DNA of 21,786 bases. Source: a virus. The position numbers and the translations under genes were made by a program. Location of the stretch: IMG/VR virus record IMGVR_UViG_3300047373_000207, positions 1-21,786 of that record; one strand, 5' to 3'. Below the pieces are notes generated by a model. It did no database searches, had not been told where the DNA came from, and saw only the letters and a list, made by a program, of their open reading frames with translations. Positions 1,875 to 14,067 of this stretch are shown piece after piece (position 1 is the stretch's first letter; each line of letters opens with the position of its first letter).

Positions 1875-4800
1875 TTAACTTTCTAGCGCTTCAAGGCGTG
1901 TTTCTAGTGCTTCAATCTTAGCAATCGCGTCTTGCAATGCAGACGTTAGCAATGGCACAAGTTTACTTTGGTCTATACCTTGGTAATCTGGCACTTGCCG
2001 TGTTGCCATAACTTTCTCTGTTGTTTCGCGCCAACGCTGACCTTCTTCAAGTTCATCTGGCTCTACAACATCTGAGCTATGTATTACTTCAGCAATAGCA
2101 GGGGTTAGCTCTTGTTGTTGTTCCTCATATGTAGCGTCAACGGCAGGCGTTAGTTCATTGCCATCTTCATCATAAGTTGCCTCAACAGCAGGCGTTAGCT
2201 CAACTTGTATTGTTTCATATGTTGCTTCAACTGCAGGGGTGTATATGTCACCTGTTGCTTCGCTTTCAACATACTGTTGGTCACGCATTGCATCTCTTTC
2301 GCCACTAATTGCTTCTGGTACTACCTCTTGCGCTTCATGTGCTATAAAGCCATCTACCCTACCGCCATCATTTACCCATTCAAAGTTTACAGGATTAAGA
2401 GCTTTAACTCTGTCAATACTACCTTGCATAGGCTGTATATCAGTCTTGAGCCTATAGTCTGAGCTAGTTACATAGGCAACAGAGAATGCAGACACATCTA
2501 TTCTACCTATTTCACCAGAAAGGTTTTCAAATCCTATATGGGTCTGAGTAGTGTTAACACTTCCTACAGTCTGCAAAGCCCTTGAAGAACCTACAACAGT
2601 AGATTCTATGAATCCACTACCTGCTGGACTAGCACCACCTACATTCAATGCATTATCTACATCTAAGTTACCTAGTACCTCTGCACCAGCAGATGTTGTA
2701 GCAAATTTACCCACACCATTATAGTATGAGGTAACACCTGCTCCAGGAAGTGCCTGTAACATAGCAGTGTTTCCGTTAGCATATAAGTATACACCTGTAC
2801 CACTATCAATAAAAAGCGAACCTGTGCCTACCTCCCTTATCCAACTGTTACTACCATCGTGATAGATTTGTAAATCGTCGGCTGTACCCATTAGTATATA
2901 ACTACCGTCTGGCAAGTCTATATTACCACCTACATCTAGATTGGCTGGTATATTAATGCCCGTACCACTAGTAATTAAGTTAGTAGTTGCACCACTTGCA
3001 GTTAATACTTTAATTTCACCAGTATTGGCTTGTAATCTTAAATCGCCACCACCGCCTGTGTATACTGACCTAGATGAGCTACCTAAATATATATTACCTT
3101 CGACGTGTAGCTTATCTGCACAAGTTGTATTGCCAATACCAACATTACCATTATGCTTTATACGCATAGCATGAGTTGAGTTAGGCTGAAAGTCAATTAC
3201 ATCTTGATTGTAAGTTGTAAAGTTCCACTCATTACTGCCTGAGTATTCTGATATTGCTCGTGTTGCGCCATCTCGCATATGTCTTACAATTGACTCACCT
3301 GTATCTGCGGCATCTAGCCTTAAATCTGCATCTACATCACCTGTACCTGATGCCTTAACTTGTATGGCAACATCAGAGTTAGCCGCGCCACGTACATCAA
3401 TCCTATAAGAAGGACTGAAAGTACCAACGCCCAAATTACCTACCGAATTAAGGTTCATTGACTTACTTTCAGTTGCGTCAATTTCCCATAATATGGAATT
3501 ACTTGTCTGCCATCTGAAAGGTTGTGTAGTGCTATCAGAAACAGGAGACTTTAATGTAAGTATTCTATTTTGTGCGCCTAAGTCTGCCTGTGCTGAGAAC
3601 ATTGATTGGTCAACACCATCTGTAAATAAATGCATTTTAGCAGTCGGTGCCGTAGTCCCTACGCCCAATCGCCCATAATTATCAATACGCATACGTTCAG
3701 TTACAACGTCATCTACACCACCATTATTTTGCAATGTACCGAATGCAATGTAGCTATCTGGCGTTGTGTCTGATGCGTGTGCCCTAATAAATGCAAGCAC
3801 CTCATTACCATCTTCAGATGTATCATTACCTTTAAAATCAATACCGCCAATTAACTCATTAGCACTAATAGATGTAATAGAATTTTCTAGTGTTAATGTT
3901 GAGCCACCGCTACTAGTAGCATTTACATTACCTGTTACATCTATACCAGTTGGTTTAACACGCGCTACTTCTGTTTCATTTACACCAAATACCAAATCAC
4001 GGGAGGTTGAGTTAGTGTATATATTAGCGGCATCAGCATCTAATGCGATAGCAAATCCATAACCATTACCATTAACATATAATTGTCCACTAGCACTAGA
4101 ATCCATACTTATATCAGTGTTACTGGTGATTTCGACAATACCTGTTACATCTATACCAGTTGATGTTGTTTCAAACTTCTTACTATTATCATAATATAAA
4201 TCAACGGAACCGTTACCATCTGCTGTCAAATATGTTTCAGTTCCTGCACCTGTTCTTAGTCGTAAACTTGTAGCATCTATAAATAAGTTACCTGTTCCTA
4301 CATCTCTAATATATGAGTTACTAGCATCGTGATAGATTTGTAAATCATCAGAAGCACCTAGTAATAATTTACCGTTGTCTGGCAAGTCTACATTACCTGT
4401 CACATCTATACCAGTGCTTTTAGCAACTAAAACATTGTTTTGCGAACCAGCACTAGAGTTGGCATCAATACTCGTAGTTACATTCGTATTTGTATCTACA
4501 AGAAATATTTCTGGGTCTGAGGATTCAAGTGTCAATTTACCTGTCATAGTGCCACCAGCTTTAGGTAGCGCAGCGTCAGCAGTAGTGCCTTGTGCAGAAG
4601 TAGCATAATCAGAAGAATCAAATGCTTTAACTTGTGCTAGGTTAGTAACCTCAGAGTCCATCAAGGCTCCTGCGGCTGTTACGTTAGCAGTATCTGTTAC
4701 ATCAGCAGATGCTTCTATGCCATCAAGTTTAGTACCATCAGCAGCTACGTCGCGGCCATCTACTGTGCCTGATAAAGTTACGCTCCCGGTAAAGTTTAAG

Positions 4801-13067: not shown

Positions 13068-13531
13068 TAACTAAAACTCACTGTAACTGTATCTGAATTA
13101 ATTACGTTGTTATCGGCATCTGTTACTTGACATCTGTAAACAGCATTGCCACCAGATAACGCATAATTAAAACCAAATCTTGTAGTGTACTGCGTTGGCA
13201 GTTGTGGGAATAGATTTATACTACTCACAGTGCCAGATACATAAAACCATTGATATGTAAATGGCGCTTTCCCGCCTGTAACTGTTACGGCTGTGTAACC
13301 AGTGCCGGGGCTACTTGTAACACCTGTGTAACTACCTATTGATGAGTTGTATGATGTAGAACCAGACAATGTTGTTTGCGTTAGTGTTGCTTCAAATGCA
13401 GTAGAAACAACTTCCCATGCACTACCATTCCATCTCTTTACACCACTGTTAGGTTCTACCCACGCACTACCATTGTAATACTTAGCTGTTGCGTCTGCAA
13501 ATGCAGTGCCGTTATAAGTTTTAATCGCCAT
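13067..13531 (-). CDS. Ig-like virion surface protein, 154 aa
   Basis: The first 45 residues hold three short 'YNG/WNG-S/T-AW' units (YNGTAFADA, YYNGSAWVEP, RWNGSAWEVV), a motif common at the base of phage fibers and decoration proteins. Residues 50-154 form an Ig-like or PKD-like domain: GKAPFTYQWFYVSG, later NAVYRCQVTDADNNVINSDT and a final VTVSFS strand. The W and C residues in those positions follow the usual Ig core pattern. Such domains in phages are generally displayed on the virion surface and bind carbohydrates weakly. It starts by a TAATG overlap with the fiber-like gene and ends by a TAATG overlap with the nozzle gene, so all three are probably coupled. Whether it sits on the head, tail or fiber cannot be read from the sequence. 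Confidence 0.7.
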   Translation of the reverse strand: MAIKTYNGTAFADATAKYYNGSAWVEPNSGVKRWNGSAWEVVSTAFEATLTQTTLSGSTSYNSSIGSYTGVTSSPGTGYTAVTVTGGKAPFTYQWFYVSGTVSSINLFPQLPTQYTTRFGFNYALSGGNAVYRCQVTDADNNVINSDTVTVSFS

Positions 13532-14067
13532 TATGCCGTTGTATCAAACCAAATGTCATCTGTTAGTGGACTTGTAGGCGCTGTATTGCCTACAGTTATT
13601 GTTCTGCCATTACCGCTTGCGTGCGCTACTTTACTGTCTAATGCAGCTTGTAAACCTGTTGTTTTTGCTATTGTAAATGTACCATCGGCTACTGTTGCTA
13701 ATGTTGTAGCTAAAGAAAAGTTACCAGTACCATCAAATGCTACGCTTCCTGTTACTGCGCCTGTCAGTGTTACTGTTCTGGCAGTAGACCATTTATCTGC
13801 TGACGCTGCATTGCCTGTGACAGCGCCTGTTACGTTGCCTGTTACGTTACCTGTAACATTGCCTGTTAAATTGCCAACAAATGTCGGCCCTGTAACTGTT
13901 CCTGTAAATGTAGGGCTTGCTAATGGTGCTTTACTGTTAGCTAAATTTTCATTAGTTTTTACTTGTGCATCAATTGCTATTTGCGTGTTATTTAAATCAC
14001 CGCCCCATGTATCTTGTGCAGTACCTGGTGTATTATATGTCCAGCCATAATTTGTTGTTGTAGGCAT
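13531..14067 (-). CDS. Short repeat-rich tail-fiber-like protein, 178 aa
   Basis: The N-terminus, TNYGWTYNTPGTAQDTWGGD (5-24), is the typical opening of many phage tail-fiber-like proteins. Next come PLASPTFTGTVTGPTFVGN (48-66), the tandem GNLTGNVTGNVTGNVTGAVT (65-84) and SADKWSTARTVTLTGAVTGS (89-108) with FDGTGNFSLATTL, all standard fiber collar-repeat motifs. The C-terminal 'APTSPLTDDIWFDTTA' is a short end motif often found in such proteins. It is far shorter than the 1251-aa fiber and has no S74 domain, so it may be a short spike, a collar fiber or an adaptor for the next Ig-like protein. It follows the adaptor gene by one nucleotide and overlaps the Ig-like gene as TAATG. Fiber character is clear; attachment site and partner are unknown. 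Confidence 0.8.
   Translation of the reverse strand: MPTTTNYGWTYNTPGTAQDTWGGDLNNTQIAIDAQVKTNENLANSKAPLASPTFTGTVTGPTFVGNLTGNVTGNVTGNVTGAVTGNAASADKWSTARTVTLTGAVTGSVAFDGTGNFSLATTLATVADGTFTIAKTTGLQAALDSKVAHASGNGRTITVGNTAPTSPLTDDIWFDTTA
13810..13875 (-). repeat. Tandem (GNVT)-type repeat in the short fiber-like gene
   Basis: Residues 65-86 are consecutive four-residue units: GNLT, GNVT, GNVT, GNVT, GAVT, then GN. On the DNA this is a 12-bp period with mainly third-position differences. Copy number of such units often varies between related phages. Confidence 0.85.

Follow-up and report, generated by a model that had tools for sequence, protein, structure and literature searches.

The C-terminal chaperone of a viral tail fiber carries a 15-residue sequence several times in tandem, which raises the question of what such a repeat is in the folded domain and how it came to be there. 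The window, that is the whole stretch of DNA analysed, is a virus record of 21,786 bases with an SU10-type portal and major capsid protein and a Terminase_3 large subunit (Pfam). Its portal has 294 weak matches among phage records, each below 60% and reaching 34-36% at best among the matches listed. Judged by the named phages with the most similar chaperones, the virus is probably of marine origin. The features discussed here are collected in Table 1. Two further observations concern other genes of the window. A short protein of the structural block (13531-14067) has a GNVTGNVTGNVTG repeat, with a tandem 12-base repeat at 13809-13875. Downstream of the fiber, an open reading frame on the minus strand (1174-1704) has an HxxxxAVD motif and a late FLHID motif; by these it resembles a small M15-type peptidase, possibly a lysis or tail enzyme.

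Table 1. Features of the fiber gene and its chaperone, with fiber residue numbers and window positions
Feature	Residues	Window position	Strand	Basis
Tail fiber gene with C-terminal self-cleaving chaperone	1251 aa	1875..5630	-	Open frame; Pfam Peptidase_S74 at 1057-1107
Pfam S74 stretch, opens with Ser1057, Lys1062 inside	1057-1107	2310..2462	-	Pfam; alignment
Predicted antiparallel beta-hairpin (tentacle)	1115-1214	1989..2288	-	AlphaFold strands
Repeat unit 1, TPAVEATYETIQVEL, rising arm	1131-1145	2196..2240	-	Self-comparison; unit alignment
Repeat unit 2, TPAVEATYDEDGNEL, carries the turn (DEDG, 2160-2171)	1146-1160	2151..2195	-	Self-comparison; model
Repeat unit 3, TPAVDATYEEQQQEL, returning arm	1161-1175	2106..2150	-	Self-comparison; unit alignment
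Degenerate fourth unit, TPAIAEVIHSSDVVE, start of returning base	1176-1190	2061..2105	-	Self-comparison
Loop of about 16 residues, IHSSDVVEPDELEEGQ, lengthens the returning arm in the window's class		2037..2084	-	Mostly unpaired, between strands 126-133 and 143-148 (domain numbering)
Predicted C-terminal helix, expected trimer coiled coil	1221-1250	1881..1970	-	Modelled helix 165-194 (domain numbering); T5-like position

The fiber belongs to the S74 family: the PF13884 profile matches it at 43.9 bits, against a cut-off of 22. As a domain boundary this match is misleading: it stops about a quarter of the way into the chaperone (51 of 195 residues). Ser1057 and Lys1062 have the spacing of a serine-lysine dyad, and both columns (S1 and K6) are invariant in 65 aligned sequences. 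The same spacing is found in the solved relatives K1F (S911/K916) and MyRF (S587/K592) (PMC8326128; here and below, papers are cited from excerpts of their text). The chaperone is fused to the fiber in one frame, so it is not a protein of its own as are A5 gp9 and V22 gp27. The fiber as a whole is acidic, with 126 D/E versus 49 K/R.

The tandem repeat, three units and a degenerate fourth at 2240-2061 on the minus strand, is real. When the protein is compared with itself over 45 positions at lags of 8 to 30, the maximum is 24 matches, at lag 15, versus 14 at best in 1000 shuffles of the domain. Pairwise, units 1-3 are identical at 10-11 of 15 residues and 29-33 of 45 bases, and the fourth unit shares just 3-4 of 15 residues with the others. 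Because the copies have diverged, the 15-residue array was not reported by a DNA-level tandem repeat search of the window. Among 11 alleles pN/pS is 0.126 in the repeats (0.016 in unit 3) and 0.222 in the chaperone body; by these ratios the repeats are evidently under purifying selection. A sequence-only reading had placed the array after the S74 core, before the final helix and within the part expected to be cut off. This agrees with the Pfam match and the modelled helix on either side of it and with its position downstream of Ser1057, and the acidic character seen by that reading is borne out as well (25 D/E versus 5 K/R in the predicted hairpin, residues 59-158 in domain numbering).

The domain of 195 residues was modelled with AlphaFold as one chain, together with 64 relatives. 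The single-chain model has a mean pLDDT of 93.3, no residue below 70 and a pTM of 0.57. It predicts an antiparallel hairpin of about 100 residues (domain residues 59-158, turn at DEDG 98-101), followed by the helix. The predicted strands (59-67, 70-75 and 81-90 on one side, 111-120, 126-133, 143-148 and 151-158 on the other) mirror each other about the turn, with i+j close to 201. Strand 81-90 is thus opposite 111-120, and therefore unit 1 (75-89) would pair with unit 3 (105-119). By arithmetic on the sum of 201, units 2 and 3 would have their TPAVEAT stretches opposed, Val93 to Val108. In the model of a seven-unit relative the strands are also mirrored about the turn, in an outer half that is unreliable (pLDDT below 50 across most of residues 92-165). 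On these models, the repeat is most likely the middle and outer part of a beta-hairpin tentacle of an S74-type intramolecular chaperone. A strand spans about 3.3 Å per residue; on this basis, or scaled from T5, we estimate the window's hairpin at roughly 105-140 Å.

Structure searches hint at the same family. The top three VIA rows among solved structures are all S74-type chaperones, with low scores: MyRF (7dc3, Z 5.6, rmsd 4.1, 88 residues aligned), K1F endosialidase (3gw6, Z 4.4) and T5 (4uw8, Z 4.1); the next row has 2.7. K1F (3GW6) is also the best Foldseek match among solved structures, with an E of only 0.015. Among predicted viral structures there are 18 matches at E up to 0.001, one of which, named 'intramolecular chaperone auto-processing', has an E of 9.7e-9. 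In sequence searches of solved proteins, the 65-sequence profile reaches E values of about 0.2, with MyRF and with the distal subunit of a long tail fiber (6f45). With the plain domain as query the hits were two SusD-like proteins at E about 0.7, which we take as chance.

Of the solved relatives, T5 pb1 (4UW8) has a lysine five residues after the serine, a side hairpin, and a tentacle directly before the C-terminal coiled-coil helix (PMC4690869). The idea of the sequence-only reading that the repeat interrupts the S74 fold is thereby contradicted. That reading had itself named an ordinary part of the family fold as the finding that would speak against it, and since the T5 tentacle is at the same position, this is the case for position; length and repeat build are unusual. 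The T5 tentacle has 40 residues and about 50 Å, and the excerpts of PMC4690869 mention no tandem repeat in it. Compared with the roughly 100 residues modelled here, the window's tentacle is therefore an extreme form of an already known part, unusual in length and repeat build only. The tentacle of K1F is long and touches the shaft (PMC8326128); it is about 20 Å longer than that of T5 (PMC4690869), and no repeat ladder is described for K1F in these excerpts. MyRF, in contrast, is without a tentacle, the corresponding strands of its ICA domain (7DC3) forming a 'donut' (PMC8326128). In Alteromonas phage A5, the hairpin tentacle of gp9 is extended by an insertion relative to V22 gp27. This chaperone is, however, separate from the fiber, and the excerpts of PMC10579305 describe forms of about 88 Å and 16 Å and no tandem units.

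Relatives came from viral contigs (four scans), bacterial genomes (one scan, 16 loci) and phage records (two protein searches). The sequence-only reading had pointed to similar acidic insertions in marine phage fibers, and the repeat does recur in related phages, mostly marine by their named kin. Eight phage isolates had their chaperone ends read by eye, and none of these eight has the 15-residue array. Roseobacter phage CRP-7 and Pelagibacter phage HTVC100P have the same chaperone frame with a short hairpin, which reads EEYEVTPAVLDDDGNVVTEAVMGTRSVPD in CRP-7 and is closely similar in HTVC100P; their arms, like those of MEP401, are of the 12/15 type and differ from the window in being without the array. 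P-SSP2 is short in a different way, S-PRM1 and S-TIM5 are of the TEWDG type, and two Sinorhizobium phages have long, unrelated tentacles.

How the hairpin grows can be read from the lengths of its two arms. The first was measured as the distance between a conserved KDxM-like motif and the turn, the second as that between the turn and a conserved YQGIDQ-like motif. Distinct tails were counted, since many of the loci derive from a contig already represented: 306 of 336 loci could be parsed (truncated loci are among the other 30), giving 180 distinct tails. Before counting, 30 tails were set aside, 28 with no or two turn motifs and 2 without an anchor. The 150 used have exactly one turn motif; choosing the turn nearest the middle would favour symmetry.

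The arms are matched in 142 of the 150 distinct tails, which fall on two length lines. In the window's class, in which the loop gives a difference between the arms of 19-20, the pairs (distinct tails in brackets) are 23/43 (19), 23/42 (2), 37/56 (2), 38/58 (13), 53/73 (6) and 68/88 (3). The plain class, without the IHSS loop, has shorter pairs of 0/3 (7), 12/15 (32), 15/18 (14) and 21/25 (8) and longer ones of 24/28 (16), 27/31 (4), 36/41 (13) and 45/51 (3). Here each added segment lengthens the returning arm by about one residue more than the rising arm, perhaps as from a bulge.

Eight tails are off the lines. L108 (65/61) is a long irregular form. By eye, L211 (7/27), L216 and L226 (both 7/26), L214 (31/19), L220 (30/18) and L245 (40/28) have another tentacle type, in which DxxG is not necessarily the turn. 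The value for L222 (100/3) is a parsing error across several S74 copies. L222 (IMGVR_UViG_3300020438_001001) is itself unusual: one open frame holds several S74-like chaperones in series, with short shaft stretches between them; every copy has a core and a QSIDQSK-like end of its own. L245 (CALGUV010000097.1, a Microbacteriaceae MAG) has a small TPAVEATYDEEGNELTPAADAVYE stretch inside a TEWNG-type tentacle, as would result from insertion of the module at another place.

For the on-line pairs r is 0.9997, with slopes of 1.07 and 1.01, a fit due partly to the selection of this set. With L108 kept, r is 0.88 in the window's class, and 102 of 20,000 permutations are as high. Keeping the off-line pairs in the plain class gives an r of 0.70 (69 of 20,000 permutations as high), and keeping the misparsed L222 as well gives -0.05. 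The matched lengthening of both strands suggests that the repeats are held in register.

In the window's own lineage the growth follows the repeat unit. The arms of 38/58, 53/73 and 68/88 correspond to 3, 5 and 7 units, with 15 residues more per arm at each step. The sequence-only reading had asked for unit copy numbers to be compared between strains, and among the relatives they do vary: 20 distinct parsed tails have 3 (n=11), 5 (n=6) or 7 units (n=3), and none of the 20 has an even number. TPAV units are present in 11 of the 13 tails of 38/58; the other two, L032 and L116, are equal in length and different in sequence. Queried with the seven-unit form, viral contigs gave no longer array among the parsed loci (80 kept of 485 confirmed), and phage records gave 60 matches, none covering 80% of the query. 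An assembly artefact is thought unlikely, as the 3-, 5- and 7-unit forms are each found in separate contigs. S74 fibers with 3 and 5 units (L006 and L011) lie at the two ends of one 36.7-kb contig (IMGVR_UViG_3300021185_002194); they are either separate genes or variants from two strains that the assembly placed at its ends.

The origin of the units can be followed in the seven-unit alleles. In all three, 35-40 of 45 bases are identical between units 2 and 3, and 36-38 between units 5 and 6; across the two pairs the count is 18-22 of 45. With identity high within and low between the arms, the step from five to seven units looks like two separate tandem duplications, in which each arm copied a unit of its own and both gained the same number. 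The outermost left and right units, first and last of the arrays, are identical at 27-35 of 45 bases, so copying was not confined to single arms, and this older outer pair may stem from a single unit. As the alleles share history, there are few independent growth steps: at least two additions of 15+15 in this lineage (3 to 5 and 5 to 7), and more in the other class.

Further, hairpins appear to move between chaperones. In L040 and L044 the hairpins are 99.1% identical and the chaperone bodies 78.7%, and in L022 and L026 the values are 96.7% and 77.0%. Exchange of hairpins between chaperone bodies is strongly suggested by these comparisons, and the ladder may rest on few original growth events. 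The shafts are mosaic too (window and L002-L027, near-identical contigs aside): close chaperones have the last 50-150 residues before the chaperone in common, and in the pairs listed shaft identity is down to background level by 50-150 residues ahead of the cut.

Taken as a whole, the explanation we consider fairly probable is a tentacle ladder kept in register that serves as a generic clamp around the folding trimer. Each 15-residue unit would be one strand segment with a TPAVEAT node, and across the DEDG turn the rising and returning arms would place their units opposite each other. A unit gained in one arm would be kept only with a partner in the other; we propose that this need to keep register is why arrays have 3, 5 or 7 units. 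Three such arms would embrace the nascent fiber tip and the lower shaft while the trimer folds. By analogy with T5 and K1F (PMC4690869), we infer that the trimer forms through the C-terminal helices, that Ser1057 cuts once the triple helix has formed, and that the chaperone is then released. Like hairpins occur on unrelated shafts and so the contacts should be generic, either polar or by backbone pairing; in T5 the contacts between chaperone and fiber are polar, and one sheet is shared by the two (PMC4690869). Such contacts would be independent of any particular shaft sequence, and an acidic hairpin beside an acidic fiber would favour release. A longer arm would then be a stronger or slower-releasing clamp, not a ruler for the tip; that longer arms hold longer is suggested by the retention of A5 gp9 compared with V22 gp27 (PMC10579305). 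A part in maturation, more plausible than one in host binding, is also what the sequence-only reading had favoured. The more specific proposal, that matched duplications extend the reach of the folding clamp and that it is an exchangeable cassette on unrelated shafts, is put forward tentatively.

The same hairpin might also have no function in its length above a minimum, having drifted by paired duplication and recombination, filtered by register alone. We find this possible, if on balance doubtful. On a tree of the chaperone bodies made without the hairpin (21 rows, 276 columns; 1 of 18 branches starred, support elsewhere weak), the four length classes require 11 changes, no improvement on shuffled labels, which average 9.9 and do at least as well in 200 of 200 shuffles. 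The starred branch (99/99) splits the rows into two sets, each with all four classes. In line with such drift, closely alike shaft ends occur with the short 15/18 hairpin and with 3-, 5- and 7-unit forms. The recurrence of long forms in several separate contigs speaks against it, and so does the purifying selection on the repeats, although such selection would also be expected here for strand-forming residues.

An unlikely reading, drawn by analogy, is that the cut long-armed chaperone would stay on the tip as a transient cap over the receptor-binding surface. The authors of PMC10579305 propose transient caps, and there A5 gp9 (about 88 Å) is retained on its fiber more than V22 gp27 (about 16 Å). 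In T5, however, the chaperone is released, and a mutant bearing it did not inhibit infection (PMC4690869).

More improbable still is a hairpin length matched to the length of the fiber tip that it folds, even though A5-like Alteromonas fibers pair an extended hairpin in the separate chaperone with a duplicated fiber knob (PMC10579305). Fibers alike in their last 100-166 residues have 3 and 5, or 3 and 7, units: L017 (3 units) and L023 (7 units) are 92% identical across the 166 residues upstream of the cut. Conversely, the window and L004 are alike in the last 50 shaft residues only, yet have 3 units each. By these two comparisons hairpin length is evidently not set by the neighbouring shaft sequence, and a simple ruler is rejected as far as the adjoining shaft is concerned. 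Finally, the first picture, in which a flexible acidic insertion breaks up the domain and modulates its cleavage or trimerisation, fits the excess of acidic residues, but is very improbable given the confidently predicted strands, the matched arms and the hairpin at the same position in T5 and K1F (PMC4690869, PMC8326128).

The S74 tentacle itself is known; what is new is the growth pattern of the hairpin. Among the matches listed from the open-licence literature none joins tandem repeats with S74 tentacles, which does not prove absence; PMC8432352, PMC9128512 and PMC12220804 contain both terms, in their excerpts in another sense. The seven-unit hairpin, of about 160 residues, is estimated to be longer than the tentacles in the literature compared, as far as its excerpts give them. 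In these tails nature offers a single beta-hairpin at a series of lengths, each step adding one pair of facing units while the chaperone stays otherwise similar. Such a series lets one ask how a trimeric fiber's folding, cleavage and release depend on tentacle length, and also how strand pairing filters the expansion of a repeat.
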